From: Owenia fusiformis
Taxonomy: Eukaryota > Annelida > Polychaeta > Sabellida > Oweniidae
DNA length: 64,000 bases
NCBI GenBank assembly: GCA_903813345.2
Contig: CAIIXF020000012.1
Location: 19,785,520-19,849,519, forward strand
Direction of reading: 5' to 3'
The position numbers were made by a program, and so were the translations under genes. The stretch's first letter is position 1. Every line of letters starts with the position of its first letter. The notes under the pieces were generated by a model that worked only from the letters and a program-made list of their open reading frames with translations, was not told the origin of the DNA and did not search any database. Below are positions 5,570 to 57,357 of the stretch, one piece after another.

Positions 5570-6250
5570 TATTTCAAAACACGTTACATTGTCATAAAAA
5601 CGTAACTTTATTTGACTTTAACTTTTCTCCACGAAAAGTGAATGAATTTGTATGTAGGTACTTCCATGGGCTTTCAATTAGAGTTGAATTAGTTGAAAGC
5701 CCATGGTTTCCAAAACACGTAACTTTTTCATAAAAATGTAACTTTATTGGACTTTAACTTTTCTCCACGAAGAATCGATGAATTTTTATGTAGGCATTTT
5801 CAAAAAACGTTACTTTGCTTTAAAAACGTAACTTTATTAGACTTTATCTTTATCCACGAAGAATGGATGAGTTCCTTTGTAGGCATTTTTAAAACACGTC
5901 ACTTTGCCTTAAAAACGTAACTTTGTTGGACTTTAACTTTCTCCAAGAAAAATGGATGAATTTTTATGTAGACATTTTCGAAACACGTTACTTTGTCATA
6001 AAAATGTAACTTTATTGGACTTTAACTTTTCTCCGCGAAGAATGGATGAATTAATATGTAAGCATTTTCAAAACACGTTACCTTGTCATAAAAACGTAAC
6101 TTTATTGGACTTTAACTTTTCTCCACGAAGAAGAATAAATGCATTTTTATGTACGCATTTTCAAAACATGTTACTTTGCTTAAAAACGTAACTTTATTGG
6201 ACTTTCACATTATCCACAAAGAATGGATGAGTTTTTATGTAAGCATTTTC
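5570..6250 (+). repeat. ~90-bp satellite array, about 7 units
   Basis: Units start with AAAACACGTTACTTTG near 5572, 5710, 5810, 5890, 5979, 6068 and 6161. Each carries AAAAACGTAACTTTATTGGA, CTCCACGAAGAATGGATGAA and TTTTATGTAGGCATTTT. Spacing is 80-93 bp except the first interval, which is longer because of the 41-bp hairpin insert. The array is AT-rich and its open frames are periodic artefacts. Confidence 0.9.
5665..5705. mobile_element. 41-bp palindromic hairpin insert, copy 1
   Basis: CATGGGCTTTCAA at the left end and TTGAAAGCCCATG at the right end are perfect inverted repeats around a 15-nt loop. The insert interrupts a satellite unit: other units read GTAGGCATTTTCAAAACAC here, so the insertion is visible against its own array. 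No clean target duplication is left (GTACTTC versus GTTTCC). Related copies lie at 34318, 53994 and 57298. Confidence 0.8.
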
Positions 6251-7380
6251 AATAAAGTTTATGTTCATGTTATTTTAATGTTTATGTAATTGAAACGTAG
6301 TATAAATAGAACGCAACATTCACACGAGCATGCATTTAATGTCTAGCGTCGCGAAATTCGAACGTGATTAGGGACCATTTGGGAAATAAGATATACATGT
6401 ATTTGGAACTGATACCAGACGCTTAAAACTGATGCTTACTAGCATTCGATTACAGCGATTTCTCGCGATGTTCATTGGTCAATCTCAACAGACCACCTTA
6501 CGTCTGATCATGTGGTTAGATCCTATGAGCATTCATTATACAAATAAGAACAAAGGAATTTTCGAAGTTGAAAAATGTCGATACGTAAAAACGAAAATAA
6601 CACAGTATATCATAAAAATTGCTATTATTTGCCGTTGTTGTAGACAAAATGAATAAGCAGAGCCCGGATTATTATGCCAGCATATGCTCGATCTGGATGA
6701 TGTGGAGCTAATGTGACCAGGGCATAACAAGTGTCTAAAAGCATGCAGTGGTTCCAGACGAGGAAAACTAAGGAATAGGTAAAAAATACAAAATATAAAA
6801 AGTACGAATGATGGTGTCATGCAGCACAACGACAATGTCTTTTTAGTTAACCTAATAGCAGGTAATTGGCAACTTCATGAAAAGCTGAAATCTAAGAAAA
6901 ATCAATCAAAATGGCCACCTTTTCAATTTTTCCAAATTTCTCAATAACATTGGATTTTCATTGACCACTTACTAGGTTTGCTTAGAGAAGACAATGTAAT
7001 GATACTTTCCTGAAATAAGCAAGAAAATACACACATGTCTTCATACTTTATTTTGTTCCAGAAAAAAGCACGGGCAGAAATGTTGTTTGGAAAAAATAAC
7101 CTTATTTGTATGGTTATCAGAAAGTCTTTTATAGGTACATGTATCTGGGTAGAAAATTATCCCCAACAGGAAATAAAAAACATGTGGATTTAAGAAGTTT
7201 TTGAGATAACAAGAGTTCTGCTTTGAACTTCAGTCAGTTTTCCTACTCCCATATAACATTTACCAATGTCAGGATCACAATGGTCATGGTCAAATGACCC
7301 CTACCATGCTGAAATATCTCGGAAAAGGTTAAACGTTTTAATAGGTTAAAAAGTTTTAAACTCCGTTCTTCCTACAGTCA
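6251..7380. other. Intergenic DNA, no gene seen
   Basis: Includes a second AACGCAACATTCA word at 6311 related to the 3.5-4.3 kb cluster. Otherwise it is AT-rich sequence without recognisable coding, RNA or repeat structure. Short open frames here have no family resemblance. Confidence 0.5.
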
Positions 7381-10300
7381 GAGTTACATCTGCCCAAGCA
7401 GTTAGAAAAAACAAAAATCTAGTTGACTTGATGATATAAATCTTGAACCGAGAGGGGTACAAGGCTATAACATATTTACTACAGTGCTGGTATATATTAA
7501 TTGATCAGTCGTTTAATTGGCATATTTTCTTGAATTTTAACATTTAATGTCCCAAACTCCCACAAACTGCAGAAAAGTATACCCCATAAATCATATTTAC
7601 CAAAATGAGTGTCTCCAAGGCTTCACACCAGCGTATGCATAATGCATTTGTCACGAGTTTGAGCTGAAATTTCGCCAAAATGAAGTAGGCTAAGGGTAGT
7701 CTCTGCCAGGTTTGTTTATTGTGGTAAGCTTGTAAGTGCTCAGAAGCAAATAATTCACGTGCGCAAAATAATCAAATAATCTAATTGGTCCAAGGAATTG
7801 GTCTAAACTTTGCTGCACATGCGCACAATGTGTGCCATGTTTTTTCTAGTGATTTCGTTTCGTTTCATGGAGTTTGCGTTTCAGTGTAACTTCCGCAAAA
7901 ATGGCGGACCATGGACAGAATTAACAGGTAAAATCACTTCGAAATTTCAAGAGAACTTTTTACCTATAATAGCAAAACTTTTGTTTTATTTGTGCATTCT
8001 ATCTATCAGATAAGAGTTTCAGGGGTATGTAGGCAAATTCATTTTAGTAGGAACACTCTGTTTAGTTTGAAAACGCACCCTATATTATTATATATCAGCA
8101 CTGTAGAGTCAATGAAAGGAATGTCTTGGCATCCCCTCCCCCGCTTGTATTGGAAGTGACTCGATCAAGTTGCATCCTTGTATTTTTCATTTTCTTATCT
8201 TGTATCTTTCAGGTACAACTATGAGAGAGATGCAGCAAACACACCAACTTAGGGCGACAGCTGGTTTAGTCTTTCGACAACTTTGAGCCATCAGGTCCAG
8301 TCCACGTAAACAGTATCATGGGCGAGAGGTGTTCGTGTTCCTGTCACCAAAGCACCGAAGTAAGTACTTTTTTTTCTATTCAATTATTACATCAGTCTAG
8401 TTCCTCTGTTTTCAGGTTCCCTTTCAGCTTGGAGATGAGGAGCCCGATGACCAACAACACAACGGAGACAACAGCTACGTCCCTGCTACCTAAGTTAAGT
8501 ATTCCTTCCTGGTTTTGCATAGGGATAGGGGGGCGCCTCCCAGTTTGATATTTACTCGTGGACTTTTGTTGGCCGACCCATATTTCTGTTGGAGAAACTT
8601 GGACTCTAAGGTAAAGTGGGAGGGTGGGTGGTTGGGTTTCCCGGGGGATAGAGTTCATGTTTCAAAATCAGAAATATGGAAGTCTACTGGTTTATATCAA
8701 ATTGGGAGAAATAAATTTTAACTTTTGTAATATTCTGTAAATTTTTAGTGTAGTGTAAAGTATAATGTAAAGTTTTATTTAAAGTTTTTATGTAAAGTTT
8801 TATGTAAAATAACAACTACTACAACATGTTTTTATCTATTTGTAGCACAGATGGTGAATCCCTGCGAAAAGACGGTCCTGTTGAAATCACATTTTTCTCC
8901 ACGAGGGTCGAGTTTCCAGGACTTACTGTAGATGTTGCATTTTGACCAGTTTTATCTCTTGCAATCAGTTGCATCCCATTAGCAGGGGGCTACTCCCAGT
9001 ACTATTTCAGTTCTACTTTTAATGGGGGAGGCCTCAAGTCACTTCACTTTTTTATTAGTTTGAGCTGTGGTCTTATAGATTTTAGCTTGGGTTGCTTAAT
9101 TCAAGTTTTTGGGAAGGTATTCACTCCATAGTCTGTGTGTGGTGGGGGGCTACTTCCAGTACCGTTCCAGTTTAATTTCATGGGGGGGGGGTCTCAAGTC
9201 ACCTTTTTATTGAGTTGGATTTGATGGAGCGATGTGGGTCTTTTGATTGTGGACGTGGTTGTTTATATCAAGTTTTTGGGAAGTCATCACTCCAGTTATT
9301 TTTTTCTTGGGGGGGGGGGTGTCAAACAACCAGACAACCAACCAACCTACCTGACATCCAACCGACCAACCAATGACCCAATAGGCTTAATCTAATCAAC
9401 CAACTTACTTACTAACCAACCAACTAACCAACCAGACAACCACCAGACCACCCAATAGGTTAAAACTAACCAACCAATAAACTAATTAATCAACCAACTA
9501 ACCAACACTCCACCCGACGAACCAAACAACCAACGAACCAGATGACCAAGATCATGGATCCAGTGCTTAGTATTGTATTGTATTGAATTGTATTGTATAG
9601 TTTTGTATTGTATTGTTTTGTATTGTATTGTATTTCATTGACCAATACTTACTCAGTAATGATTTAATTTTAAAGTTGACTTCAAATACTACTCCAGATC
9701 TAAATTTTGAAGGTCTGAAGTCTTGTGTTCATTTTAGCTACAGTTGTAGATTGAAGGGTCTTTTCTTTTGGGTTTTCATGCTAAAATTGTGGGCTTAGTT
9801 TCGGGGTTTTCTTTCTTTTTAATTGAACCATCGCTGATCTTTTCCTTAAATGTACTTTCAGGTGCAGTCTTTTTGCCTTGGAGAGAACAAAAAGAACCAC
9901 AAATGGAAAACCACAGAGAATCTACAATTGGTGGTACCTACATGTACATGTATCTGCAGCATTTGTATCTACATACCTCTTGCCTTGGAGAGAACAAAAA
10001 AGAAACACGAAAGGAAAACCACAGAGAATCTACAATTTGTGCTACCTATCTGCAGCATTTATATCTACATACCATCTTGTTAAAGGTACTGTACACATAA
10101 TCAGTTCTATCATTTGATGATTTTGCTCTCTGGTTCAGTACGGTTATTCAACAACGACACATTTTTCACGTGTTGGGATTCTAATCCCATTGCTGGCACA
10201 TGTATGTTTGGCAAATATTCTAAGAAATACACTAAATGATGACTGCCTTGATTTCACTTAATGTACAAATGTACCATGAAGCCATGTTTCATTATTTTCA

Positions 10301-10444
10301 CATGTGGTCTGTGATAGTTTCCTGAATCATTCCTACTTCACATTGGGCCAAATCAAGATGGCAACTGCTTTGAAAAACGAAACACCACATTTCAATTTAT
10401 TCTTAAAGAATTTACATATACTCCACTATTCCATTCTTCCTTCA
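7381..10444 (+). repeat. Array unit 1 (type A, with TIR insert)
   Basis: Block A 8213-8359 (147 bp, ends before GTAAGT). Block B starts 8416, with candidate donor after 8610. Block C starts 8846. ACCA-rich tract about 9333-9545. TATTG tract about 9571-9635. Block D starts 9862 and contains two ~105-bp sub-repeats with CCTTGGAGAGAACAAAAAG and CAGAGAATCTACAA. Removing the 622-bp insert gives a unit of about 2440 bp, close to units 2 and 3. Block A contains the open segment MGERCSCSCHQSTE, which joins in phase to VPFQLGDEEPDDQ of block B and stops soon after. Confidence 0.85.
7482..8103 (+). mobile_element. 622-bp TA-flanked TIR element inside unit 1
   Basis: The ends CAGTGCTGGTATATA (7482) and TATATCAGCACTG (to 8103) are inverted repeats flanked by TA (7480-7481; 8104-8105). 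The other five units read TTTACTAGAGTC across this point, giving five empty sites and proving insertion. The interior has CCAAT-like ATTGG words, a GCGC-rich patch and AAAAATGGCGGACCATGG at 7896-7913, followed by a strong donor (ACAG/GTAAAA after 7927). The ATG at 7911 runs MDRIN and would splice in phase to block A (RYNYERDAANTPT then stop). Tc1/mariner/pogo type is inferred from the TA duplication. Confidence 0.85.
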
Positions 10445-12970
10445 GAGTTACATCTGCCCAAGCAGTTAGTACTAGTTGACTTGATGATGTAAATCTTGAG
10501 CCGGGGGGAGGGGGGGGGGGTACAAGGCTATGACAGATTTACTAGAGTCAATGAGAGGAATGTCTTGGTATTCCCTCCTCCGCTTGTATTGTAAGTGACT
10601 CAACCAAGTTGAATCCTTGTATTTTTCATTTTCTTATCTTGTATCTTTCAGGTACAACTATGAGAGAGATGCAGCGAACACACCAAGTTAGGGCGACAGC
10701 TGGATCAGTCTTTCGACAACTTTGAGCCATCAGGTCCAGTCCACGTAAACAGTATCATGGGCGAGAGGTGTTCGTGTTCCTGTCACCAAAGCACCATTAA
10801 AGTAAGTACATTTTTTTTATTCAATTATTACATCAGTTTAGTTCCTCTGTTTTCAGGTTCACTTTCAGCTTGGCGATGAGGAGCCCGATGAACAAGACAC
10901 AACGGAGACAACAGCTGCGTGCCAACTAGGACTACAACCGACGTTCCTGCTACCTAAGTTAAGTATTCCTTCCTGGTTTTGCATAGGGATAGGGGGGTGC
11001 CTCCCAGTTTGATATTTACTCGTGGACTTTTGTTGGCCGACCCATATTTCTGGTGGAGAAACTTGGACTCTAAGGTAAAGTGGGAGGGTGGGTGGTTGGG
11101 TTTCCGGGGGGATAGAGTTCATGTTTCAAAATCAGAAATATGGAAGTCTACTGGTTTATATCAAATTGGGAGAAATAAATTTTAACTTTTGTAATATTCT
11201 GTAAATTTTTAGTGTAGTGTAAAGTATAATGTAAAGTTTTATTTAAAGTTTTTATGTAAAGTTTTATGTAAAATAACAACTACATGTACTACAACATGTT
11301 TTTATCTATTTGTAGCATAGATGGTGAATCCCTGCGAAAAGACGGTCCTGTTGAAATCACATTTTTCTCCAAGAGGGTCGAGTTTCCAGGACTTACATGT
11401 ACCGTAGATGTTGCATTTTGACCAGTTTTATCTCTTGCAATCAGTTGCATCCCATTAGCAGGGGGCTACTCCCAGTACTATTTCAGTTCTACTTTTAATG
11501 GGGGAGGCCTCAAGTCACTTCACTTTTTTATTAGTTTGAGCTGTGGTCTTATAGATTTTAGCTTGGGTTGCTTAATTCAAGTTTTTGGGAAGGTATTCAC
11601 TCCATAGTCTGTGTGTGGTGGGGGGCTACTTCCAGTACCGTTCCAGTTTAATTTCATGGGGGGGGTCTCAAGTCACCTTTTTATTGAGTTGGATTTGATG
11701 GAGCGATGTGGGTCTTTTGATTGTGGACGTGGTTGTTTATATCAAGTTTTTGGGAAGTCATCACTCCAGTTATTTTTTTCTTGGGGGGGGGGGTGTCAAA
11801 CAGCCAGACAACCAACCAACCTACCTGACATCCAACCGACCAACCTACCTGACATCCAACCGACCAACCAATGACCCAATAGGCTTAATCTAATCAACCA
11901 ACTTACTTACTAACCAACCAACTAACCAAGCAGACAACAACCAGACCACGCAATAGGTTAAAACTAACCAACCAATTAACTAATTAATCAACCAACTAAC
12001 CAACACTCCACCCAACGAACCAAACAACCAACGAACCAGACAACCAACGAACCAGATGACCAAGATCATGGATCTAGTGCTTAGTATTGTATTGTATTGA
12101 ATTGTATTGTATTGTATAGTTTTGTATTGTATTGTTTTGTATTGTATTGTATTTCATTGACCAATACTTACTCAGTAATGATTCAATTTTAAAGTTGACT
12201 TCAAGTACTACTCCAGATCTAAATTTTGAAGGTCTGAAGTCTTGTGTTCATTTTAGCTACAGTTGTAGATTGAAGGGTCTTTTCTTTTGGGTTTTCATGC
12301 TAAAATTGTGGGCTTAGTTTCGGGGTTTTCTTTCTTTTTAATTGAACCATCGCTGATCTTTTCCTTAAATGTACTTTCAGGTGCAGTCTTTTTGCCTTGG
12401 AGAGAACAAAAAGAACCACAAATGGAAAACCACAGAGAATCTACAATTGGTGGTACCTACATGTATCTGCAGCATTTGTATCTACATACCTCTTGCCTTG
12501 GAGAGAACAAAAAGAAACACGAAAGGAAACCCACAGAGAATCTACAATTTGTGCTACCTATCTGCAGCATTTATATCTACATACATGTACCATCTTGTTA
12601 ATGGTACTGTACACATAATCAGTTCTATCATTTGATGATTTTGCTCTCTGGTTAAGTACGGTTATTCAACAACGACACATTTTCCCTTGTTGGGATTCTA
12701 ATCCCATTGCTGGCACATGTATGTTTGGCAAATATTTTTTCTAAGAAATACACTAAATGATGACTGCCTTGATTTCACTTAATGTACAAATGTACCATGA
12801 AGCCATGTTTCATTATTTTCACATGTAACTGGTCTGTGATAGTTGCCTGAATTATTCCTACTTCACATTGGGCCAAATCAAGATGGCAACTGCTTTGAAA
12901 AATGAAACACCACATTTCAATTTATTCTTAAAGAATATACATATACTCCACTATTCCATTCTTCCTACAG
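10445..12970 (+). repeat. Array unit 2 (type A)
   Basis: Block A 10652-10801 (150 bp, one extra codon). Block B from 10857, candidate donor after 11074. Block C from 11316. ACCA-rich tract about 11804-12060 with a duplicated CTACCTGACATCCAACCGAC segment. TATTG tract about 12086-12155. Block D from 12381. Near the start a run of more than ten G follows GAGCCG. Block B reads VHFQLGDEEPDEQ and continues to a longer tail than in unit 1 owing to a 23-bp length difference, which breaks frame conservation between units. Confidence 0.85.
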
Positions 12971-15354
12971 GAGTTACATCTGCCCAAGCAGTTAGTTGAC
13001 TTGATGATGTAAATCTTGAGCCGGGGGGGGAGGGGGGTACAAGGCTATGACAGATTTACTAGAGTCAATGAGAGGAATGTCTTGGTATTCCCTCCTCCGC
13101 TTGTATTGTAAGTGACTCGACCAAGTTGCATCCTTGTATTTTTCATTTTCTTATCTTGTATCTTTCAGGTACAACTATGAGAGAGATGCAGCGAACACAC
13201 CAAGTTAGGGCGACAGCTGGATCAGTCTTTCCACAACTTTGAGCCATCAGGTCCAGTCCACGTAAACAGTATCATGGGCGAGAGGTGTTCGTGTTCCTGT
13301 CACCAAAGCACCAAAGTAAGTACATTTTTTTATTCAATTATTACATCAGTTTAGTTCCTCTGTTTTCAGGTTCACTTTCAGCTTGGAGATGAGGAGCCCG
13401 ATGAACAAGACACAACGGAGACAACAGCTGCGTGCCAACTAGGACTACAACCGACGTTCCTGCTACCTAAGTTAAGTATTCCTTCCTGGTTTTGCATAGG
13501 GATAGGGGGGCGCCTCCCAGTTTGATATTTACTCGTGGACTTTTGTTGGCCGACCCATATTTCTGGTGGAGAAACTTGGACTCTAAGGTAAAGTGGGAGG
13601 GTGGGTGGTTGGGTTTCCCGGGGGATAGAGTTCATGTTTCAAAATCAGAAATATGGAAGTCTACTGGTTTATATCAAATTGGGAGAAATAAATTTTAACT
13701 TTTGTAATATTCTGTAAATTTTTAGTGTAGTGTAAAGTATAATGTAAAGTTTTATTTAAAGTTTTTATGTAAAGTTTTATGTAAAATAACAACTACTACA
13801 ACATGTTTTTATCTATTTGTAGCACAGATGGTGAATCCCTGCGAAAAGACGGTCCTGTTGAAATCACATTTTTCTCCACGAGGGTCGAGTTTCCAGGACT
13901 TACCGTAGATGTTGCATTTTGACCAGTTTTATCTCTTGCAATCAGTTGCATCCCATTAGCAGGGGGCTACTCCCAGTACTATTTCAGTTCTACTTTTAAT
14001 GGGGGAGGCCTCAAGTCACTTCACTTTTTTATTAGTTTGAGCTGTGGTCTTATAGATTTTAGCTTGGGTTGCTTAATTCAAGTTTTTGGGAAGGTATTCA
14101 CTCCATAGTCTGTGTGTGGTGGGGGGCTACTTCCAGTACCGTTCCAGTTTAATTTCATTTTATTGAGTTGGATTTGATGGAGCAATGTGGGTCTTTTGAT
14201 TGTGGACGTGGTTGTTTAATTCAAGTTTTTGGGAAGTCATCACTCCAGTTAATTTTTCTTGGGGGGGGGGGGGGTGTCAAACAACCAGACATCCAACCAA
14301 CCTACCTGACATCCAACCGACCAACCAATGACCCAATAGGCTTAATCTAATCAACCAACTTACTTACTAACCAACCAACTAACCAACCAGACAACCACCA
14401 GACCACGCAATAGGTTAAAACTAACCAACCAATTAACTAATTAATCAACCAACTAACCAACACTCCACCCAACGAACCAAACAACCAACGAACCAGACAA
14501 CCAACGAACCAGATGACCAAGATCATGGATCTAGTGCTTAGTATTGTATTGTATTGAATTGTATTGTATTGTATAGTTTTGTATTGTATTGTATTGTTTT
14601 GTATTGTATTGTATTGTATTGTATTTCATTGACCAATACTTACTCAGTAATGATTCAATTTTAAAGTTCACTTCAAGTACTACTCCAGATCTAAATTTTG
14701 AAGGTCTGAAGTCTGTGTTCATTTTAGCTACAGTTGTAGATTGAAGGGTCTTTTCTTTTGGGTTTTCATGTTAAAATTGTGGGCTTAGTTTCGGGGTTTC
14801 TTTCTTTTTAATTGAACCATCGCTTATCTTTTCCTTAAATGTACTTTCAGGTGCAGTCCTCTTGCCTTGGAGAGAACAGAAAGAACCACAAAGGGAAAAC
14901 CACAAAGGGAAAACCACAGAGAATCTACAATTTGTGCTACCTACCTGCAGCATTTGTGATCTACATACCTCTTGCCTTGGAGAGAACAAAAAGAAACACA
15001 AAAGGAAAACCACAGAGAATCTGCAATTTGTGCTACCTATCTGCAGCATTTATATCTACATACCATCTTGTTAAAGGTACTGTAACACATAATCAGTTCT
15101 ATCATTTGATGATTTTGCTCTCTGGTTCAGTACAGTTATTCCACAACGACACATTTTTCAATTGTTGGTATTCTAATCCGATTGTTGGCACATGTATGTT
15201 TGGCAAACATTTTTTCTAAGAAATACACTAAAAGAGGACTGCCTTGATTTCACTTAATGTACAGATGTACCATGAAGCCATGTTTCATTATTTTCACATG
15301 TGGTCTGTGTTCTTAAAGAATATACATATGCTCAACTATTCCATTCTTCCTACA
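12971..15354 (+). repeat. Array unit 3 (type A)
   Basis: Block A 13169-13315. Block B from 13370, candidate donor after 13587. Block C from 13823. ACCA-rich tract about 14280-14515. TATTG tract about 14541-14626. Block D from 14851, where AAGGGAAAACCACA is duplicated. The segment that carries the G-run before CTCAAGTCACC in units 1, 2 and 6 is deleted near 14157. Block D already resembles type B units (GCAGTCCTCTTGCC), so the transition from type A to type B lies within this unit. Confidence 0.85.
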
Positions 15355-24655: not shown

Positions 24656-24661
24656 AATAAA
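24656..24661 (+). terminator. Candidate polyadenylation signal AATAAA
   Basis: AATAAA lies about 370 bp beyond the terminal exon-like block on the plus strand. It would close a transcription unit running through the six-unit array. The hexamer is common in AT-rich DNA, so this is suggestive only. Confidence 0.3.
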
Positions 24662-28748: not shown

Positions 28749-29181
28749 TTGCATTATCCAATTATGTTGTTTTTAGACCATCCTGGTATGACCTCATTCT
28801 CGAATCATTACATTTTCCAACAAGATGGGGCTCCAAGCAATAGATCTCCCAAGAGTGTCAAATGTTTAAAAGAAAATGTGCCTAGATTCATCCCTCTAAT
28901 CACTGCCTCCCCATACGATCAACCTGAGACTAACATAAAATTTTATGTTAGTCTCAGGATCAACCAACGTCTGCAACTACCATGTATGGGGAGAACTAAC
29001 AGAATTGGTGTACCATGAATCCTTTACATCTATTCAGTCTCTTGAGAACAGAATTGAATTAATGAGAAGTGAAATTCATTGTCTTTAACAGCATATCAAT
29101 GATGCTATTGGCCAGTTTAGGCCAAAATTGAGGGGTACAATTAATCAAAATGTTGGACATATTGAACGCCTGTTTATGTAA
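28749..29181 (+). pseudogene. Mariner-type transposase remnant
   Basis: Frame pieces include YIFQQDGAPSNR, the catalytic-region block of mariner/Tc1 transposases (FQQDGAP). Further on come NVCNYHVWGELTEL and INDAIGQFRPKLRG with HIERLFM before TAA at 29179-29181. The pieces lie in different frames: a 34-bp palindrome with its duplication at 28924 and a TAA at 29086-29088 break the gene. The N-terminal DNA-binding part is absent. Not functional. Confidence 0.85.
28924..28957. mobile_element. 34-bp perfect palindrome insert with 7-bp TSD
   Basis: CTGAGACTAACATAAAA is followed directly by its exact inverse TTTTATGTTAGTCTCAG, a perfect palindrome without loop. It is flanked on both sides by GATCAAC (28917-28923; 28958-28964) and interrupts the transposase remnant. 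Its sequence is unrelated to the CATGGGCTTT hairpins, but size and duplication length are alike. Confidence 0.8.
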
Positions 29182-34085: not shown

Positions 34086-34475
34086 AACATGTGATGACTC
34101 CTCAAAGCAATGTACTTTGTTTCCCAATATTCCATGCTATAACTGGGTGTGCCATTGCATCAGGATTTAATGGAGAGTCTAAGACATCAGTCTGGAACCA
34201 ATGGAGCACTTACCCTACAGCATTAACAGAACCGATTCCCTGCTGGATGTCATACCTATTTTCAAGCGTTTCATCATTCTGATCTGCAAGCCATGGATCA
34301 TCAATCAATGCTGCTATCATGGGCTTTGAACAGACTCTTGAAAGCCCATGCTGCTATGAAGGAGATGTTCACAAAGAGGATTTTGTTCATAGTACACATC
34401 CCTCCAACATCAGATGCCCCTTTACAACATATGAAGAGAGTTCTTTACCATGCTGATAGAAAAATACACATATAA
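34086..34475 (+). pseudogene. Fragment of multicopy 'GCDT' ORF family
   Basis: Starts VMTPQSNVLCFPIFHAITGC and SGFNGESKTSVWNQWSTYP, and ends with KEMFTKR..IPPTSDAPLQH. It matches the decayed gene on the minus strand at 50.3-52.4 kb (CFPIFHAMTGCDTTSGFNG; MFTKRTSIISHIPPTLDALL). It is cut off at the 5' end at about 34086, has an Ala-Ile for Asp-Thr change in GCDTT, and is interrupted by a hairpin insert at 34318. Family function unknown to me; from memory such proteins are common and uncharacterised in invertebrates. Confidence 0.75.
34318..34350. mobile_element. 33-bp palindromic hairpin insert, copy 2, with TSD
   Basis: CATGGGCTTTGAA ... CTTGAAAGCCCATG forms a 12-13 bp stem. Both sides carry CTGCTAT (34311-34317; 34351-34357), and ATGCTGCTAT is repeated if the element's last bases are counted. 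The homologous gene at 50.64 kb reads CAATCAATGCTGC straight into AGGAGATGTTC, giving an empty site. Insertion is therefore demonstrated by comparison. Confidence 0.88.
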
Positions 34476-44604: not shown

Positions 44605-44944
44605 TACTAAATGACACTTTACACGAAATTTGTATTTTTATATTTTTATTCTAATGATTGATGAGTTTCATTTGGATATCACTTTCATTTTTATATGAGT
44701 TGCTATATTATATTTTACTTTATTGTCGAATTCTGCAAATTTTCGTTTGTATACTATAGTAGCTTAGATCATTGTGAAATAGATGTGATGTGATAACATG
44801 TAAATTCATTATTTTAGGCCACTTATTTGATATTTCGACAATTTCATCAAAATCAAGAAAAGTGAATTGAGAACTATAAGGGAATCAATGACAAAAGAAT
44901 AGTGATAATTTAGGCTTTAATTGCTCGAATATTGGTCCTGATGA

Positions 44945-47100: not shown

Positions 47101-47105
47101 GGTAT

Positions 47106-49019
47106 CGCCCTATGCAGACAGAGCCTGTGGGAAATATTGGGTGCGGAGCAAATGAGCGGAGGGTGCGGAGCTAACGGTCATTTTTGAATTTAAATTTGGG
47201 ATATTTCTGAAACTAAGCCGTTTTGGGACTTCAAATATACCAAGATATGTGTATTTGACACCAAATATCAATACAATTGTGAAAATACAGGGTATTCCAA
47301 AAGTAAAAGGACTGGTGCTGGCATTTTGTTAAATATGCACCAATCGTCTTTAAAATTTTACATAATGTACTTTCATGTATCGTTACTAAAATTGCAAATT
47401 TTCGACAAAGAATATGTAACTCAGGTAGAGTTATGGTTGCTATGGTAACATGACATCACAATACCCGGGGCAACATTCCACACAGAAAGTTACATTAAGA
47501 CAGAAAGATACATTAACCATTTTGTACATCCCATATCAAAGTTAAAATGCAAAAACTGGTGGGCATAACATTTGTTTTACATAATTTGATATTCCTATGT
47601 ATCCTATGTACTTTGAAAAATAGGCTCCTCTTTGGTCAGTAGAAGAGTAGCACTCTTTTTTCATGACTCAAACGCATGAGTGAACCCATTTGAGGACATG
47701 TCACGCATGGTCGATTGAACAACTTGGAGAAGCTCAATCTCATTTTTAAAGATCTTACAGCACTGATTAGCATTCCCTTCTCCATGTAAGTAAAAATTGG
47801 ATGTTGCATGATCAGAAGAGTATGGTGCATGGTTTTAGAACTCAAGACCTAGCTCCTTTACAGCTACATGGTCTTTAATGGTGACCTGCGGGCAGGCGCT
47901 TTATCCAGGTGGATGACTGGCTTCAAATTGGTTATTTTCAAAAACTCAACCATGAATTGTTCAGACAGTAATTCATAGTGATATTCCAAGAAATTGAATA
48001 AATATTATTATTATGAAATTATACTTGAATCTGAGTTTTATAGCAACACCTTTACAACAAAGACACTAATAAAATAAACAAGAAATGTTGTATTATAATA
48101 GGTGAATTAGATACTTTCTTTAGTAATACAAAAATGTTAGATATCACATTTTCAGAAAAAAGTTGCCCCGGGTATTGTGATGTCATGTTCCTATAGTAAC
48201 CATAACTCTACCCACATTTCATGATTTTTTCTGAAACTATACAATTTTAGTTGCAATACTACAAAGTACAATTTGTGAAAATTTGAAGACACTCGGTGCA
48301 AAATTGACAAAATGCCAGCACCAGTCCTGTTACTTTTGGAACACCCTGTAGTAGCGCAATTCATTCTATAGCGACGCAGTGTGCCTTAAACCTCTCCCAG
48401 ACCTATATCTTTTGAAATTATCCTTTTAATACTGAGTCCCCAGCATTCATAAAAAATGGTGTTCAAGGTACACTATCTATACAAATTATTTTTGCATCTT
48501 GGAAGCCAGGCAGTATCTGTGTGATTTTATAAAAATTCGGAAATGTTTATCAGATATGAGCCCCCTCTAAATATTGGGTGCGGAGCAGCTCCATAAACGT
48601 ACCTCCGCACCCAATATTTAGAGGGGGCTCATATCTGAAGAACATTTCCGAATCTTTATAAAATCACACAGATACTGCCTGGCTTCCAAGATGCAAAAAT
48701 AATTTGTATGGGTAGTGTATCTTGAACACCATTTTTTATGAATGCTGGGGACGCAGTATTAAAAGGATAGTCTCAAAATATATAGGTCTGGGAAATGTTT
48801 AAGGCATACTGCGTCGCTATAAAATGAATTGCACTACTATTTTCACAATTTTATTGATATTTGGTGTCAAATACACATATCTTGGTATATTTGAAGTCCC
48901 AAAACGGCTTAGTTTCAGAAATATCCCAATTGTAAATTCAAAAATGACCGTTAGCTCCGCACCCTCCGCTCATTTGCGCCGCACCCAATATTTCCCACAG
49001 GCTCTGTCTGCATAGGGTG
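47106..49019. mobile_element. CAC-family foldback element, copy A (1914 bp with nested insert)
   Basis: The ends C(G)CCCTATGCAGACAGAG (47106) and CTCTGTCTGCATAGGGTG (to 49019) are inverted. GGTAT flanks both sides (47101-47105; 49020-49024), a 5-bp duplication. The body is one long inverted repeat (GGTGCGGAGC, GGTCATTTTTGAAT, CCAAGATATGTGTATTTGAC mirrored), with a second palindrome at the centre near 48590. A mariner-type element is nested in its left arm. A CAC start and 5-bp duplication are what Transib/RAG-type elements show; this is inference without a transposase. Confidence 0.85.
47288..48348. mobile_element. Mariner-like element nested in copy A, 1061 bp
   Basis: The ends CAGGGTATTCCAAAAGTAAA (47288) and TTACTTTTGGAACACCCTG (to 48348) are inverted and flanked by TA. 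Copy B of the host element reads GAAAATAGTAGCG here, an empty site with one TA. The arms extend about 190 bp and include TGACATCACAATACCCGGGG / CCGGGTATTGTGATGTCATG. A minus-strand frame at 47636-47845 might be a transposase scrap but shows no diagnostic motif. Confidence 0.9.
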
Positions 49020-49024
49020 GGTAT

Positions 49025-49726
49025 ACTACTAGGTAGGCTCATCTGACATTTTCAGTACATTTTCAAAAAATGCCAGATCTTATAGGATATAGCTATAGTC
49101 TAGAGTCAATATGCATTTGATCAGATACTAGAATTATAGTAATATAATATATAATGTTATAATTAACACATCCTTTAGAGGGATACACTAGCGATCTGAC
49201 TGCATAGTGCTTTGTAAGCTGCAATGCGTGTGAGCTTTAGTCCCTACCTCTGAAGCCGACGCCTAGATTGGAGAATTATCTAAAAATCATCGTATTTAGA
49301 AACCAAACACGTATACCTTCTCAAAATATACTACAATTTTGTCGTTTCTACAATGGGTGTTGATAACTGCCGACACAGTACACATATCTTCAGTTTGCCT
49401 TTTGATTTGCTTTAAAAATTGAATACTTTTTGGTTGTCTAACAATCTTGAACGAACATTTAAAGACCTCAATGCAACACATTAAAATGTAAGCGGGCTTA
49501 TGATTGTTATTTACTTGCGCAGGGATCTTGGAGTTGCTCTTTTAGCAAGGATGCATTGAATCATTGTGTAAGTAAGGTTCTAGCGGGATAAATAGTGTAA
49601 AGTAATCGCCGTTTGCGGAACAAATCGTGAAACTTTCCTCAAATGATCACTGATTGCTACTCTTTAAATAAAGCAACTGTGCCAAAAAATCGCTCCATAG
49701 GAACTACCCTAATTTTACAATTCTTA
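49025..49726. other. Spacer, no gene seen
   Basis: AT-rich sequence without recognised coding, repeat or RNA structure. Confidence 0.5.
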
Positions 49727-49765
49727 CCCCCCCCCCCATGGTCACGGAGGGGGGGGGGGGGGGGG
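49727..49765. repeat. C11 / G17 hairpin-forming tract
   Basis: Eleven C (49727-49737) are separated by ATGGTCACGGA from seventeen G (49749-49765). The two runs can pair as a hairpin, and the G run alone could stack. Such tracts are prone to length errors in assembly. Confidence 0.85.
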
Positions 49766-49889
49766 CTAAAAAAAATTTGACACAATTTTTTTTACTAAAT
49801 TATGCTCATACTTCAAATTTAATATTACCTTATCATGTTAAGAAGTTAATGTTAAAGTAAAAATATGAAATACCATTGATTTCCAATTG

Positions 49890-50306
49890 CTATGTTAAAG
49901 GATGGTGATGGGCGACGCCCACTTTTCTTGTATTGAATATTTTGCACCATATCACAGTAGCAGGAGTAAATCGAATAAGTGATATATGATTTTAAAATTA
50001 CATCTATATCTAATGCTTCACATGACTATTATTTTTCACCTTTTTCACTGTTAAAGGCTTGTTTTGAGTCACACCCATCTTTTAGATATACAGAAAAAAT
50101 GGTAGATATACAGCTTGACTTGTGGTTTCCTGTGGCTTCTGAGTGCAGTTAGACTCCATATATCAACTATCTATACCTGTTTAATAGTTCCTTTAGTTTC
50201 ACTTTGCACACATTTTTAAATCATAGTTTTATTAATCTTATCCATAGAAGGATTTATACTAGTGTCTATCAGTATCATAGTTACTTTTTGGTATGTTGCA
50301 GTGTCC
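49890..50306 (-). repeat. 3' tail of the multicopy ORF unit
   Basis: Inverted counterpart of 34740-34938 (GTGTGACTCAAAACAAGCC, TTTAACAGTGAAAA, GTCGCCCATCACCATCC with TTTAACATAG). It lies directly 3' of the decayed gene on the minus strand. Confidence 0.6.
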
Positions 50307-52366
50307 TTATGAAGAACAATTGCCATCACCACATAATGCTGTACAAACAAGATTTCCTTTCAGGCTCTTGCATCATGTTGATATGCATTGGCATTTGCAG
50401 CTACACTTTATGAGAGCCTGGCAAGCGTTTGATGCTTGGGGTAAGGTTGTCCACCTTGGTATCCATTTGGTGTCTTCAAATATCCAGCCCCACTCAGCTG
50501 GGAAGGAACTTGAGGATTCGCTGTAAGTGGTTGCCCCCAAATAAATACAGCTTGGTTTATGACTCTCTTCCTATGCTGTAAAAGGGCATCTAATGTTGGA
50601 GGAATGTGTGATATTATTGAAGTCCTCTTTGTGAACATCTCCTTCCTCGCAGCATTGATTGATGTTTCATTGCTTGTTTTAAGTTGTAGACCAGAATAAT
50701 GAACTGCTCTAAAATAGGCATGGCATCAAGCAGGGTATTGGGTCGTATTGAGATTTCTGTTAATACTGTAGTCAATTCAGGGTAGGTACTCCATTGGTTC
50801 CAGGCTGATGTCTTAGACTTTCCATTAAAGCCTGATGTGGTGTCACACCCAGTCATAGCATGGAATATTGGGAAACACATGGCTTTCTGAGGAGTCATTA
50901 CATAGGCAATTTCGTGGGCTGGAAGGTATCTAAAGGACTTTCCTTTGCCAAAGGCGAGCCAGATTTGAATGTTAAGTTGTACTAACTGCCAGAACAACAG
51001 TGTCTCAATCAACTGTTCTAATCGTCATTTTAGTGAAGCCTTTTTTCATTGCATCATATATGTGCAGAAAGATTCGGGAATCTGCCTCTTCAAGGGATGA
51101 TGTTGAAATCTCAGAAACATGCTGCTTAGGATATGCCTCTGCAGAATTCCAAATTGTTGTAATCAGGATTTTATTCTCTGGTACTGGAATGACTGAGACA
51201 TTTGATGCAAGGAAGGTAAAGAGATCACTTTTCTTGTCATCCGAGCGTAGAAATTCTGGCCAATTCCCTGGCAATTTATTTTCTGGATAAACTATTTGAC
51301 GCTTTCCAGATCCACGCTTTTTTGTTGTTGAAGATTTGACACTTTTTGGTATATATTGATCCCATACATTATCAAGTCTTTGTACTCTATTAAGTTGATC
51401 TGCAGCATACTTATCAAATATGTCATTTGAGTATTGTAGGAAGGTTCTTGCTTCTTGAGTTTTCAGCAGGTGGACTATTACGGCACCATCAAGAAACAGG
51501 GCTTCAACATCTGGTGTATTGATCTCTCTATTTGGAACAAGGTCTTCCACTGGTTTTAAGATATTTGCTTTGAGGCCAGTCTTGATTGTGCCATCTTGTG
51601 AAAGGGATGGAGGGAATGCCTGGTTCTCATGTCAGAAAAGTTCATCTAAGTTGCTGTCTCTATTCTGGCACGCTATGTATAGTTGTGAAAATATGTATAG
51701 TTGTGAAAATAGGGCAGTGTCATTTTTCAAGCTTGCTAGCTTTGAAATTGAGTTAGATTTGTTTGAAGATCTTGAAATTGTTTCTCTTGATAGGGTCTGG
51801 TGATGGCTTTTGATCTTTCAATAATTCTCTCCTTTATATATACTTCACATAGACTTTTCCCCTTTTTCTCCATTGTGTTCAATGTGTCAACTGTACTGCT
51901 TGACATTACATCTTTAGTATCAAGTGTCCAAAGTTCCTTTGATGTTGCAATAAATGGGTTTCCTAAATCATTGATAACCTCAGTAAGGGAATTGACATAT
52001 TTGTTGAAACTGGTTTGATAACTAACACTGTGCTCATGGTTTGCAAGGACTTCATCATCATTATCCTTCATCTCATCCTCAAACTCAGTTAACATTCTTG
52101 CGATCTCTGGACCACCGACCATCCACTTCTGTAATGCGATTGAATTGGCGAACAACCCCACAGCTCCACCCTCACTTTTGATCACACTATTGTTTTGCTT
52201 ATGGGCTTGGTCTATTGACATGGAGGAGAAGGTTCTTCTTGACTTGCTGACAGTGAAATGCCCCTTCATGAAAGCATTGTGAACTTCAGGGTGGATTTCT
52301 TTGAGCTGATCCATATCACTTACATGGACAGGTGATAGTTTCTTTGTAGAGCTAGAAGTCACCAAG
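50307..52366 (-). pseudogene. Decayed 'EEADSRI / GCDTTSGF' ORF-family gene
   Basis: Minus-strand pieces in order. 52366-51736 (209 aa) has HPEVHNAFMKGHFTVSKSRR and SEGGAVGLFANSIALQKW. A shifted frame to 51550 has KLASLKNDTALFSQLY and, after a TGA, PPSLSQDGTIKTGLKANIL. 51550-51005 has LEEADSRIFLHIYDAMKKG up to IRTVD, then TGA. Next come IQIWLAFGKGKSFRYLP and CFPIFHAMTGCDTTSGFNG, then MFTKRTSIISHIPPTLDALL. A Cys-rich tail (LIKCSCKCQC..CTALCGDGNC) runs to TAA at 50309-50307. At least three stops and three frameshifts, plus an in-frame 18-bp duplication at 51678-51713. From memory this architecture is widespread and uncharacterised in invertebrates; biochemical role unknown. Confidence 0.8.
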
Positions 52367-53640
52367 TCTCACAGCTCTAGTTATTATCTGTTAGACACAG
52401 AACTTGTAATACTCCTATTCGAGATAAGAGTTCAGGTGGTAATTTACATAAATATCTCCCATGATGCATTGCTTTAGAAGGGACAAATTTGCATTGGCCC
52501 GCCGAACAAGTCGATTACTCTGAACGTTTCTCAGCTTCTGATCCTCCATCAGCCCTCAAGCATAGTTATATGATCCAATCTATTCAATAATCTGAAGGAT
52601 AATCGGAGATTCAAAGTAACATTATTTATATTTTTTCGATCTTCGATGGCGTCTGAGCAATTTCTGGGATATCAGTGACGTCACTGGAATTGGACGGCAT
52701 TTTCAACTACAGATTTCTTCGGATTTGGGGATTATAGTTCAAAAAGCTTTGTCATATATCTTAATTACATGCATACCTATCGTTTGTGCAAATGAAACTC
52801 TGCATAAATGTTAAATAGAGTCGCAGTGCGGCATTGAAAATAGCACCCCTGTGTAATCCAATGGGAAAGAACCCGGATGTAGACGAAGTTGTACCATACA
52901 TGAGAGCTCTTCAAACGGGAGGTAGCTAAACTGAACTAAATTAAACGTTATCGCGTATTGGTATATTGGAGTACCATGTACCAGAATTTGAATATAGGTG
53001 ACCCTGTTTCTTCACTCTGCTATCTGGTATCTATCCAAGATTCAAAATCAAGAGGCAAAATTGTATTGATTGGTAATCTACTTGAAATCTACCCAGGTAA
53101 CAAGACCCCCTCCCAATACACATAACACTCCTTCTTAATTTAAAACTGCCCTTATTAGAGCAACAATATCATATTTTAAAACATAACAGTTCATCAAAAT
53201 AAGCAGAACTACTTCTTGATTATTTTTATTAATCATGTAGGTCAAAATCATACTTACAAAAACTGATCTAGATCCTATCATAAACGTTGATGCTCATTGT
53301 CACTCAAGCATGACCTTGTCAAAAACAAGAAGTGATTTTGGTAGTTGTTTAAGAAAGATACACTTTTTGTTAGATTATTCTGTATTTGCATTCAAGTCAC
53401 TCATCAGATGTCACATAGTTTGTCAAACTTTATTTTCAATTAAAATTACATTATTTATGATGTCGAAGTATATGCCACTCTGGAGATAAAAGGAATTAAT
53501 TAAAGATAAGTAAATATTCATTTTGCTAAAAAATGACTGCAATCTCACTCATTATCATGTATATCATGGTAAAAGGTCCCAACATTGAAATTATGATACT
53601 ATTTAATGATAATCCTAAAAAGTTATGGATGGTCATTAAG
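52367..53640. other. Intergenic or intronic DNA, no gene seen
   Basis: Contains a perfect CRE-like palindrome (GTGACGTCAC at 52675-52684) but no linked exon. Otherwise AT-rich and featureless. It may belong to the upstream introns of the ABCC gene. Confidence 0.4.
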
Positions 53641-53854
53641 CCTACCCCTATAAATTTTAGGGGTAGGGGTAAAAATTGCGAAAAGTAGATAAAAAATGGA
53701 GGAAATTTTCGGCACAGTTGCTTTTTACACCCAGGAAGGTTGTCTGGTCATATATGGAAAGTTCCACGATTTGTTCCGTTTTCGGCGCTTTCGCCCTTTT
53801 TTATGTCACTATTTATCTCGCTATTCTGATTGGTTCATAATTTACGGCGCTAAA

Positions 53855-54115
53855 AATAAACTCGACGGGCGTGAAGATGTGTAAATAACCGTCTTAACGC
53901 CCGTTAATCATTTTAACGCCTTCAGTTTACGCCCGTAAATGTTGTTTGAACGCCCGTAGAACATACTTCTTCACGGGCGTAATTTACGCCTACCATGGGC
54001 TTTCAACTGGAAAAAGCCCATGCGCCTACACAGGCGTAATCTCACGTCTGCACGGGCGTAATTTTACATCTGCACGAGCGTAATTAACGCCTACACACCC
54101 GTAAACAACACGTGC
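53855..54115. repeat. Cluster of ~9 CGGGCGTAA motifs, both orientations
   Basis: ACGGGCGTAA-like words lie near 53856, 53897 (inverse), 53929 (inverse), 53950 (inverse), 53973, 54031, 54053, 54073 and 54103 (inverse), often in the pair CGTAATTTACGCC. CpG density is far above the neighbours. They could be subterminal repeats of a degraded element or a multi-site regulatory cluster. A hairpin insert lies in the middle of one motif pair. Confidence 0.7.
53994..54022. mobile_element. 29-bp palindromic hairpin insert, copy 3, with TSD
   Basis: CATGGGCTTTCAACTGG then AAAAAGCCCATG; the stem is CATGGGCTTT/AAAGCCCATG around a 9-nt loop. Direct repeats CGCCTAC flank it at 53987-53993 and 54023-54029. 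This is the shortest copy of the family. Confidence 0.85.
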
Positions 54116-54489
54116 ATACTTTGGGCGGGTAAGTCAACCATAAATATTGGCGGTAGTACTATTAATTTACTTTGAATGCGATAAAGAACATGAAAATGGG
54201 TGATGGTACAGTGTGCTGAAACAAACTTGTCTCTAAAACTAAATTATCTGGTGATGGTAATTTAAGATCATTAAATCGTCTGGCAGATGAGTAAATTTCA
54301 AGACAATTACAATTAAAGATTCATTCCATGTTTTTCTTGATACAATTCTTTGGGACACCCTATAGATTAAATATAGTAAGATTCGATGATCTGTAAAATG
54401 AAAACAAAATAATGGGGTATCTTGTTATAACAATATAATAGTGAACAATATATTTCAAAATATAAAACTAGATTACACACAAATAACTA
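54116..54489. other. AT-rich spacer, no gene seen
   Basis: TTTGGGACACCCTATAG near 54351 looks like an isolated mariner-type end; nothing else is supported. Confidence 0.4.
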
Positions 54490-55065
54490 TGAACTGTTTC
54501 ATTGTTATATATAAGGTACTATTGCTCTGATATAGTGCTATTATAGAATATTGATAGAGAACTCAACTGTTTCATTGTTATGTATATGGTACTATTGCTC
54601 TGATATACTAGTAGTGCTATTATAGAATATTTATATATGGTACCATTGCTCTGATATAGTGCTATTATAGAATATTGATAGAGAACTCAAATTTTTGCAA
54701 TTTCATAGTACTGCTATATTTCTATAACATTGCTAAAGTATTGCTAGATTGCTATAATAGGCCTACTGCTATATTCCTATAGTACTGCTATATTGCTATA
54801 GTTCTGTCATATAACTATTACAGTAGACTGCTATAGCACAGCTTTTTGCTATAATATTGCATTAGTAGGCTACTGCTACATTGCTAATACTGCAATATTT
54901 CATAGTACTGTTTTACTGTGTTATTGCATAAATACTGCATTTTATAGTACTGCTAAATTGCCATAATACTGTTATATTACTATAGTACTGATATATTGTT
55001 ATTATAATGTTACAATGGTACTGCTTTATTGCTATGGTACTGAGCTGCTAAAGTATAATGCTATT
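54490..55065 (+). repeat. TGCTAT-rich degenerate tandem array
   Basis: The first part has two to three copies of a ~76-90-bp unit (GGTACTATTGCTCTGATATA, GTGCTATTATAGAATATT, GATAGAGAACTCAA). The rest is a mesh of TGCTATA, ATTGCTATAG and AGTACTGC words to about 55060. No coding. Confidence 0.8.
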
Positions 55066-55110
55066 TTCTACCAAGTTAACATTCTATTTGGATAATTATC
55101 ACATCTTAAA

Positions 55111-55904
55111 CACCCTATGCAGACAGAGCCTGTGGGAAATATTGGGTGCGGAGCAAATGAGCGGAGGGTGCGGAGCTAACGGTCATTTTTGAATGTAAAT
55201 TTGGGATATTTCTGAAACTAAGCCGTTTTGGGACTTCAAATATACCAAGATATGTGTATTTGACACCAAATATCAATACAATTGTGAAAATAGTAGCGCA
55301 ATTCATTCTATAGCGACGCAGTGTGCCTTAAACCTTTCCCAGACCTATATATTTTGAAATTATCCTTTTAATACTGAGTCCCCAGCATTCACAAAAAATG
55401 GTGTTCAAGGTACACTATCTATACAAATTATTTTTGCATCTTGGAATATATCTAAATATTGGGTGCGGAGTAGCTCCATAAATGTAGCTCCGCACCCAAT
55501 ATTTAGACAGGGCTCATATCTGAAGAACATTTCCGAATTTTTATAAAATCACACAGATACTTCCTGGCTTCCAAGATGCCAAAATAATTTGCATGGGTAG
55601 TGTATCTTGAACACCATTTTTTATGAATGCTGGGGACGCAGTATTAAAAGGATAGTCTCAAAATATATAGGTCTGGGAAATGTTTAAGGCATACTGCGTC
55701 GCTATTAAATGAATTGCACTACTATTTTCACAATTTTATTGGTATTTGGTGTCAAATACACATATCTTGGTATATTTGAAGTCCCAAAACGGCTTAGTTT
55801 CAGAAATATCCCAAATTTAAATTCAAAAATGACCGTTAGCTCCGCACCCTCCGCTCATTTGCTCCACACCCAATATTTCCCACAGGCTCTGTCTGCATAG
55901 GGTG
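55111..55904. mobile_element. CAC-family foldback element, copy B (794 bp)
   Basis: The ends CACCCTATGCAGACAGAGCC (55111) and GGCTCTGTCTGCATAGGGTG (to 55904) are perfect 20-bp inverted repeats flanked by TTAAA on both sides (55106-55110; 55905-55909). The arms are inverted over most of the element, with a central palindrome near 55475. It gives the empty site for the mariner nested in copy A. Its right end is only 23 bp from the next exon. Confidence 0.9.
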
Positions 55905-55927
55905 TTAAAACTATATTCATGTTCCAG

Positions 55928-56008
55928 GGCATCAATATGTCTGGTGGCCAGAAGCAGAGAATCAGTGTGGCCAGGGCCATGTATTCCAAAGCTGATGTTG
56001 TTGTTCTT
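55928..56008 (+). CDS. ABCC (MRP-type) ABC transporter exon with signature motif
   Basis: An 81-bp exon between GTTCCAG and GTGAGT, phase 0 on both sides. It encodes [20 protein letters not shown] followed by KADVVVL. MSGGQ is the ABC signature (C-loop) that contacts ATP across the dimer. The run GxNxSGGQKQRxSxARAxYSxAD is typical of nucleotide-binding domain 1 of the ABCC/MRP subfamily, whose next exon should carry the Walker B DDPLSA block. That exon and the Walker A exon were not found within the window, so flanking introns are long. A membrane efflux pump is the family role; the member cannot be named from one exon. No stops or frameshifts, so it is likely functional. Confidence 0.9.
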
Positions 56009-57289
56009 GTGAGTATAGAAGTTTGTTATGATGTAATGTAAACTTCAAATCTAGAAATCCTCAAGATCTCATAACTAACCATTTGTCACTGCACCAAACA
56101 ATGCAAAATCTTTTGTAACTGGTGTAGAATCAAATGAAAAGTATTTCTGTTTTCTTGAATAAAAACTAATCTTATTCAGTGATAGTGGCATACGTATTTC
56201 TTGTTTGAGTTAGAATCCCTGCAATTATTGGTAATATGATTACTTCATATGCCACATTCTTGTTGAATCATAATTTTCTGCAATTTGCTTACATTATTGA
56301 TTCGTATATAATAGTTTGGAAACTAAAAGTTAACATTATTGACTATTTAAATGTTGTGGAACTAAAGTTTTTCAAGACATTGACATTGTACTATATCTAG
56401 GCCTTGACATTCCAAAACAGTAGAAAAATGATATAAAGGACGAGTGTCTTTAAGACCCTATATTAGCCCCGAAGATATTTAGAAAGAATTTTACAGGATA
56501 TCAAAGAAATATTGAATAGTGATATTTCTTTATACTTCATTGAGATCAATTGTCTTCAAAAAAGTCTGCAAAACTATGTCAGAAAAGAATATTGATTTTT
56601 TAAAATTTACATCACAATGAGAAAGAACAAGGGGCAACAATAAAAAACACATGAAGTAATTAACAAGTCAAAAATGCATATCAATCAATTATATATTGAT
56701 CTGCTTCCTTGAGATCAATTGCTCATATACAGTTTGTGGCAGTAAAATACTGAATTTATTATTTCACATCACAGTGAGGAAACACAAAGAGCAACATTTG
56801 AAAACTGAAATGATTGAAATGCTATTTACAGTGTATACACCCCTTAACACCTAAGTAACAAAGCTATTAAAAAATGATAGAACTCCGAATAGATTTACCC
56901 ATATCATGTACCTATTCATTTAGCGATTTATTTGTAAACCCAAGTGAAAAATAGATCTTACAGATTTGATTAATTTTCTAGAAGAAATCTGTTGCTCTCC
57001 CATCCGTTCATTTTTCCGAAACAGGGTGTGAAAGTATAACCAGAGATGCTACATGTTAAAAAGTAAATGCTTTTCATGATTCATGGAATGACACACTCCC
57101 ATAGATCATTTTCATATTACTTTGTAAATTACAAATAACATGGTGAACAAAAAGTTTAACACAAGTTTGAAGTTTAAGAAAAGTCTGTCATGACAGTTCT
57201 GCCATTCCAGAAGATTTTCACTTAAACCAATAGTTCTGCTTTATCAGAATTTTTGAATATTTACTGTGCATGTTCTGAATTTCTTCTTA
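56009..57289. other. Probable ABCC intron, no feature seen
   Basis: AT-rich sequence following the donor GTGAGT. No exon resembling the Walker B region or other ABC blocks was recognised, and no repeat family was identified. Confidence 0.45.
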
Positions 57290-57297
57290 GTTCTGAC

Positions 57298-57331
57298 CAT
57301 GGGCTTTCAACTCTAATATTGAAAGCCCATG
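57298..57331. mobile_element. 34-bp palindromic hairpin insert, copy 4, with 8-bp TSD
   Basis: CATGGGCTTTCAA and TTGAAAGCCCATG with an 8-nt loop (CTCTAATA). Flanked by exact 8-bp direct repeats GTTCTGAC at 57290-57297 and 57332-57339. The clearest target duplication of the family. It lies 27 bp beyond the stop codon of the zinc-finger exon, in its presumed 3' UTR. Confidence 0.9.
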
Positions 57332-57357
57332 GTTCTGACTGATTTTCAGATTCCTTC

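Follow-up and report, generated by a model that had tools for sequence, protein, structure and literature searches.

Short palindromes between target repeats in the annelid Owenia fusiformis as probable end-joined excision footprints of P-superfamily miniature elements

A 64,000-nucleotide stretch of the genome of Owenia fusiformis (contig CAIIXF020000012.1; hereafter the window, whose own positions are used for its features) contains four short palindromes, here called the CATGGGC palindromes, which an earlier note on this DNA took for very small transposable elements mobilised in the hAT manner. We propose, at a probability of roughly 0.87, that they are end-joined excision footprints (scars) of miniature inverted-repeat transposable elements (MITEs) of the P superfamily. 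This mechanism is the opposite of the one suggested in the note: the palindromes would mark departures, not arrivals.

The window holds eight exact matches to CATGGGCTTT, forming four inverted pairs (shuffled sequence: mean 0.18, maximum 2), all exactly at the positions that had been given for them. The scars and one insert-free counterpart are:

5665-5705 (41 bp), unstranded: two-ended scar, palindrome with an inverted pair of CATGGGCTTT, inside a satellite.
34318-34350 (33 bp; 34311-34357 with repeats), unstranded: two-ended scar between 7-bp CTGCTAT repeats at 34311-34317 and 34351-34357.
50548-50877, minus strand: paralogous, insert-free stretch with a single target copy, CTGCGAG; empty site for the scar at 34318.
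53994-54022 (29 bp; 53987-54029 with repeats), unstranded: two-ended scar between 7-bp CGCCTAC repeats.
57298-57331 (34 bp; 57290-57339 with repeats), unstranded: two-ended scar between 8-bp GTTCTGAC repeats.

The direct repeats that had been described beside three of the copies (CTGCTAT, CGCCTAC and GTTCTGAC) are exact, of 7, 7 and 8 bp. The scar at 5665 comprises, by eye, 18 bases matching one end of the MITE described below, seven bases of filler and 16 bases matching the other end, and its flanks, GTACTTC and GTTTCCA, show no exact repeat. Both empty sites that had been claimed were also found. The satellite units adjoining 5665 lack the insert (by eye), and the gene stretch at 50548-50877, which is 72% identical over 360 aligned columns to the surroundings of 34318, carries the target once and is uninterrupted, which makes the insert at 34318 a gain there. 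The tandem repeat that surrounds the scar at 5665 is diverged and satellite-like and occupies about 4490-6260 of the window.

Genome-wide counts come from one host assembly (498 Mb, 525 contigs), in which the pattern CATGGGCTTT-N(5-30)-AAAGCCCATG occurs 1139 times and its backward control not at all; loops of 30-60 bases yield only 21 pairs, several of which are two adjacent scars. Flanks were read for the four copies of the window and for 41 more within the first 12.3 Mb of contig 1; an exact repeat of 7 bp was found in 33 of these 45, of 8 bp in one and neither in 11. This search of pairs and flanks had been proposed in the earlier note; with repeats beside 34 of the 45 copies they do not stand at the level of chance, and longer flanking homology, rather than being the rule, was noticed in one repeat family only. 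Three of the 45 copies (L019, L028 and L034) are copies of one locus. Among 56 distinct two-ended copies, 43 have a 7-bp repeat, one an 8-bp repeat and 12 neither. One dispersed repeat bears a scar with a CAATTG loop, or its remnant, at six loci (L019, L028, L034, L083, L100 and L136), so that a number of scars owe their spread to copying of another element.

The 13-base end CATGGGCTTTCAA has 5440 matches in the genome (backward control: one), more than twice the number that 1139 pairs can contain, and the listed positions of these ends revealed inverted pairs about 540 bp apart. The larger element with the same 13-bp ends, which the earlier note had recommended looking for, does exist: it is a MITE of 537-542 bp (L065, L067, L069 and L070) with ends CATGGGCTTTCAAYTAGAAGGGTA, which start as the scars do and then run on into ...AAGGGTA. 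By eye, its target duplications are of 7 bp in L065, L069, L070 and L086-L090 and of 8 bp in L067, so that both the MITE and the scars have the 7-8 bp target duplication of the P superfamily. The exact 22-base NTAG end occurs 408 times and its 20-base form 476 times (both counts omit intact ends of the CAAGAG type); about ten copies out of the 408 intact ends were examined.

Several candidates for longer relatives were rejected. L085-L090, with 0.9-5.1 kb between intact ends, are the same 540-bp MITE with nested sequence, their longest frames being of 83-122 amino acids where any are listed, and L066 reads as two adjacent scars (by eye). L068 (C1:6278076-6278860), at first taken for a 643-bp relative, is by eye a Tc1/mariner-like MITE of about 600 bp, with CAGT tips (CAGTGCTG) and TA repeats, lying within a CATGGGC scar. 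In L067 (C1:2708035-2708715) an extra CAGCGTA adjoins a TA within the left MITE end and, by eye, resembles the footprint of a Tc1/mariner element.

How far the MITE ends persist was read from an unselected sample, all 100 listed 13-base ends in C1:1-7.758 Mb. Kept length is the exact match to the MITE end and is also shortened by point changes; a count based on a 13-base word misses remnants of fewer bases and any MITE that is altered at both of its ends. The match is of at least 22 bases in six ends, of 20-21 bases in none and of 13-19 bases in 94. Five of the six long matches are in MITE copies and one in L102, a locus taken as a MITE by eye from that one end. Nine of the 100 ends belong to five MITE loci (L065, L067, L069, L070 and L102), and three of the 94 shorter matches are altered ends of L067 and L070. 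All 91 ends outside the MITE loci keep 13-19 bases and then diverge from the MITE; none reaches 20. The same drop is seen across the genome, from 5440 ends at 13 bases to 476 at 20 and 408 at 22 (the last two in the NTAG form).

For 45 of the 91 scar ends the flank recurs as an exact 7-bp copy at a distance of no more than 64 bases, compared with a mean of 0.7 and a maximum of 4 of 93 for shuffled flanks (the shuffle was run on 93 ends, two of them duplicates from overlapping loci, whose removal leaves 91). Among these 45 repeat-bearing ends the partner end matches over at least 10 bases in 23, over 1-9 bases in 20 and not at all in two. The 22 with a partner match below 10 were sorted by eye into five near-complete partners with point changes (L074, L094, L096, L124 and L133) and 17 shortened ones. 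Trimmed, one-sided and filler-bearing copies are common and resemble repaired breaks. L097 has 17 bases of one end and eight of the other between GTGTTGA repeats; in L104 the repeat is kept and the second end is lost or reduced to two bases; and L120 has a duplicated block of end plus flank, as expected from templated filler. Merging the 91 ends gives 80 scars, 11 of them with two ends, versus five MITE loci in 7.758 Mb, about 16 to 1; three of the 80 (L083, L100 and L136) belong to one repeat family. At 0.8 scars per end, the 5440 ends would correspond to about 4,300 scars in the genome, a rough figure from a single 7.76-Mb stretch.

The kept lengths also bear on the position of the cut. Of the 34 CAAYTAG ends that extend to base 17, 24 retain base 18 (binomial P 5e-6, A having a local frequency of 0.32); 10 of these 24 retain base 19 (P 0.22), and none of the 10 retains base 20. 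Of 12 such ends of the CAAGAG variant, four retain base 18 (P 0.57). The simplest reading is that the cut would lie 18 bases in for CAAYTAG and 17 bases in for CAAGAG, a further base being added by chance or microhomology. Kept lengths run out near base 18 in the CAAYTAG type and near base 17 in the CAAGAG type, and at exactly 17 in the element considered next, the stagger being read indirectly in each case.

An independent control is provided by an element that carries part of a P-type transposase. L058 contains a frame of 559 amino acids with PF21787, PF21788 and PF21789 (the P-type catalytic and GTP-binding domains), which matches the structure of the Drosophila P transposase (6p5a) with an E value of 2.3e-15. 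A search with this frame led to L140:2790-8375, an element of 5586 bp with identical inverted ends of 31 bp (CATGGACCTATATCCTCTGGACACCAATCAA) and a 7-bp repeat, ACCTAAG. The element (ends CATGGACC) has one C-terminal P-transposase exon (tblastn E value of 2.7e-7 to the L058 frame), which is 68-69% identical to the P-type loci L061-L064, themselves matching PF21788 with E values of 4e-5 to 7e-5. The exon matches PF21789 with an E value of 0.0026, below the family cut-off, and has no useful PDB match of its own. Transposase homology and inverted repeats of about 31 bp with a target duplication, two further marks of the P superfamily, are present in L140.

Scars of the same anatomy are observed for this element. 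Fourteen two-ended palindromes in the genome hold at least 12 bases of both of its ends, and all 14 have exact 7-bp repeats. Their 28 ends keep 12-17 bases (12 being the floor of the search), exactly 17 in 15 of them and never 18, and five of the scars are exactly 34 bp long, that is, 17 and 17 bases joined with nothing lost. Intact exact 20-base ends of this family number five in the genome. The 17-base limit together with the repeats fits the published P stagger and junction pattern, here in an element linked to a P transposase. L140:2790-8375 also contains a tandem array of a unit of about 203 bp, with only one recognisable transposase exon, and on C5 two intact ends of the CATGGACC element lie about 11 kb apart. 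As for other P-type loci, L061, L062, L063 and L064 are on four chromosomes with their longest shared blocks 98-100% identical; the shared sequence extends to the edges of the 9.9-kb stretches, and the ends would lie outside. A further candidate for a P-type element is L059:2920-8623 (5704 bp), whose ends are CACTTACCTSATTWG and whose repeat, of 8 bp, is CTATTCAT.

The window was also scanned for palindromes of 18-60 bp that are flanked by exact repeats of 7 or 8 bp. Besides three of the four CATGGGC scars, a single new palindrome emerged (five block-shuffled controls: none each):

28924-28957 (28917-28964 with repeats), unstranded: probable third-family scar, a perfect 34-bp palindrome between 7-bp GATCAAC repeats.

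It consists of CTGAGACTAACATAAAA and its complement. Applied to 22 longer loci (200 kb), the scan yielded only the CATGGGC scar in L140, which is the sole exact CATGGGC pair of that locus and has the repeat GGTCAAC. Third-family (CTGAGAC) pairs number 104 in the genome, and in a sample of 20 pairs exact 7-bp repeats were found in 14, equal to 13 of 19 distinct sites (L172 and L184 share flanks).

On the strand as read, the second base of the 7-bp target, taken from rejoined empty sites, tends to be T and the sixth A in all three families, with counts of 31 and 35 of 43 in the CATGGGC family, 7 and 10 of 13 in the L140 family and 10 and 8 of 14 in the third. The CATGGGC target (n=43; G1 22, T2 31, A6 35, C7 19) shows a GT...AC preference. 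G at position 1 with C at position 7 is favoured in the CATGGGC and third families, while the L140 family has more A at position 1. Pooling the two strands necessarily makes the profile symmetric; position -2 then also stands out for T, and position 10 for A, in the three families. Repeat length and target are like those of Galileo, and the CATGGGC MITE is therefore linked to the P group by its behaviour.

We propose that a non-autonomous P-superfamily MITE of about 540 bp would insert with duplication of 7 (sometimes 8) bp of its target, and that a transposase acting in trans, which we infer to be of P type for the CATGGGC family too, would excise it with a long stagger, cutting 17-18 bases in from either tip. 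Each flank would be left with a single-stranded tail copied from the MITE tip, and host end joining, to judge from the form of the junctions, would seal the two tails bluntly, through microhomology or with templated filler, often after trimming. The product would begin and end with the target repeat; between the two copies would lie at most 17-18 bases from either end of the element, separated by a filler of 0 to about 20 bases. The tails being near-identical inverted repeats, the scar would be a palindrome with a variable loop. In the one assembly read, no site showed both the filled and the scarred state.

Several observations weigh against this proposal. No 7-bp repeat is found within 64 bases of 34 of the 91 scar ends, even if one mismatch is allowed, and a further 12 have a repeat only with one mismatch, for which the shuffled mean is 10, so chance is not negligible; six of the 20 third-family scars likewise have no exact repeat. 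The commoner end type, CAAYTAG, seems to be cut at 18 and not at 17. The loop CAACTAGAAATTG is present in 11 of 17 loci sharing one 22-mer, a recurrence that repeated repair can explain but that could also reflect scars that were mobilised again. As to the transposase, a THAP domain was not found in two frames of L058 (that of 559 amino acids and its neighbour). No inverted CATGGGC pair, with up to two mismatches, bounds the P-transposase match in 21 stretches of 8.5-9.9 kb (L058-L064, L137-L144 and L159-L164), the length of which some elements may exceed, nor in the eight second-exon stretches of about 3.3 kb.

The earlier interpretation stands in so far as it described a dispersed cut-and-paste family with duplications of 7-8 bp; what is not supported is that the palindromes are themselves mobile and akin to hAT elements. 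hAT elements make 8-bp repeats and are not known to leave long pieces of their ends on excision, such as stretches of 17 bases from both. Here 43 of 56 copies have 7-bp repeats and one an 8-bp repeat, with up to 17-19 bases of each end retained. That ultra-short MITEs of 25-47 bp are moved in trans by a transposase would agree with the exact repeats of most two-ended copies (the same 43 and one of 56) and with the recurrence of some loops at unrelated sites, and yet we consider it quite improbable. At least 17 of the 91 ends have an exact repeat and a shortened partner, and one-sided copies occur; such copies would be unable to move as two-ended elements. The loops vary between copies and hold filler, the kept pieces end at the same place, a full parent exists, and the ends that known P-type elements require are much longer, 138 and 216 bp in the fly (PMC1562414).

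Excision by a superfamily other than P, with a long stagger that has gone unrecorded, is unlikely, if the less so of the alternatives. The CATGGGC and CTGAGAC families have no transposase tied to them, and only about ten copies among the 408 intact ends were examined; set against this, the repeat length, the CATGG tip and the scar anatomy are the same as in the element with the P exon, the target preference is similar, and in Galileo, a member of the P superfamily, the repeats are likewise of 7 bp in most cases and of 8 bp in a few, with GTANTAC as the target (PMC4168063). Replication slippage between the inverted ends of MITEs already in place, deleting their interior with no cut by a transposase, would also leave both ends and both target repeats, and a deletion derivative retaining about 48 bases of the left MITE end does occur (C5:7894534). 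Nothing in slippage, however, explains why all 91 ends outside the MITE loci break off 19 bases from the tip or sooner, why one entire end plus some flank is deleted, or why a 17-base limit holds in unrelated sequence, which makes it very improbable.

If the palindromes are excision footprints, sequences readily taken for tiny transposable elements become a tally of transposons that have left. A single scar would reveal a target site, the position of a cut (to about one base) and the outcome of its repair, and many natural events at a near-identical break could therefore be read from one assembly. From them one could read how widely beyond flies the P-type stagger is conserved, the end-joining route of the germline, and how often cut-and-paste elements leave rather than stay. 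Three families with the same scar anatomy would suggest a host-wide habit of repair. It is conceivable, albeit doubtful, that several thousand germline excisions of P type have become fixed in this genome and are archived there, at the scar to MITE ratio of about 16 to 1. If so, germline P-type breaks would here be mostly end-joined and not refilled from the sister copy; alternatively an unusual, perhaps developmentally favoured, rate of excision would purge the element almost as fast as it spreads. For repeat annotation a caution follows: short palindromes with target repeats may be footprints and not MITEs.

The scar type itself is already known from fly genetics. Among the literature matches listed, neither the 10-mer nor natural genome-wide P-type scars were recognised, and a natural genome in which P-type scars exceed the surviving elements was not found. 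Excision footprints with filler in rice (PMC4423477) are related in kind and belong to other superfamilies, while coral MITEs (PMC2872659) proved unrelated. The zebrafish Pdre2/THAP9 element (PMC10983969) is, like the Owenia elements, a non-insect P-type element with a CAT tip and internally deleted copies; it differs in its 13-bp ends and 8-bp repeats, and excision scars are not mentioned in the available portion of that paper. The P-MITEs of Anopheles gambiae (PMC1562414) are also short non-autonomous relatives of P elements, with P parts of less than 100 bp, but have 8-bp repeats, and the word "footprint" is absent from the main text of their description. Galileo of Drosophila (PMC4168063) shares the 7-bp repeats, with a few of 8 bp, and its GTANTAC target resembles the G/T..A/C preference of the CATGGGC and third families; it is unlike them in its long inverted repeats, and "footprint" is absent from the main text there too. 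A close counterpart is the P element of Drosophila melanogaster, whose stagger is of 17 bases (PMC7776569) and whose excision junctions have the same anatomy, with 17-nucleotide tails (PMC2895639). As in Owenia, these junctions combine the target repeat with as many as 17 bases from either inverted end and with microhomology or templated filler in between; one end is sometimes lost, and the ends begin with CATG (PMC2895639, PMC7776569). The fly junctions are laboratory events at a single reporter with 8-bp repeats, whereas the scars of Owenia are natural, present in the assembly, mostly flanked by 7-bp repeats, numerous and derived from a MITE.

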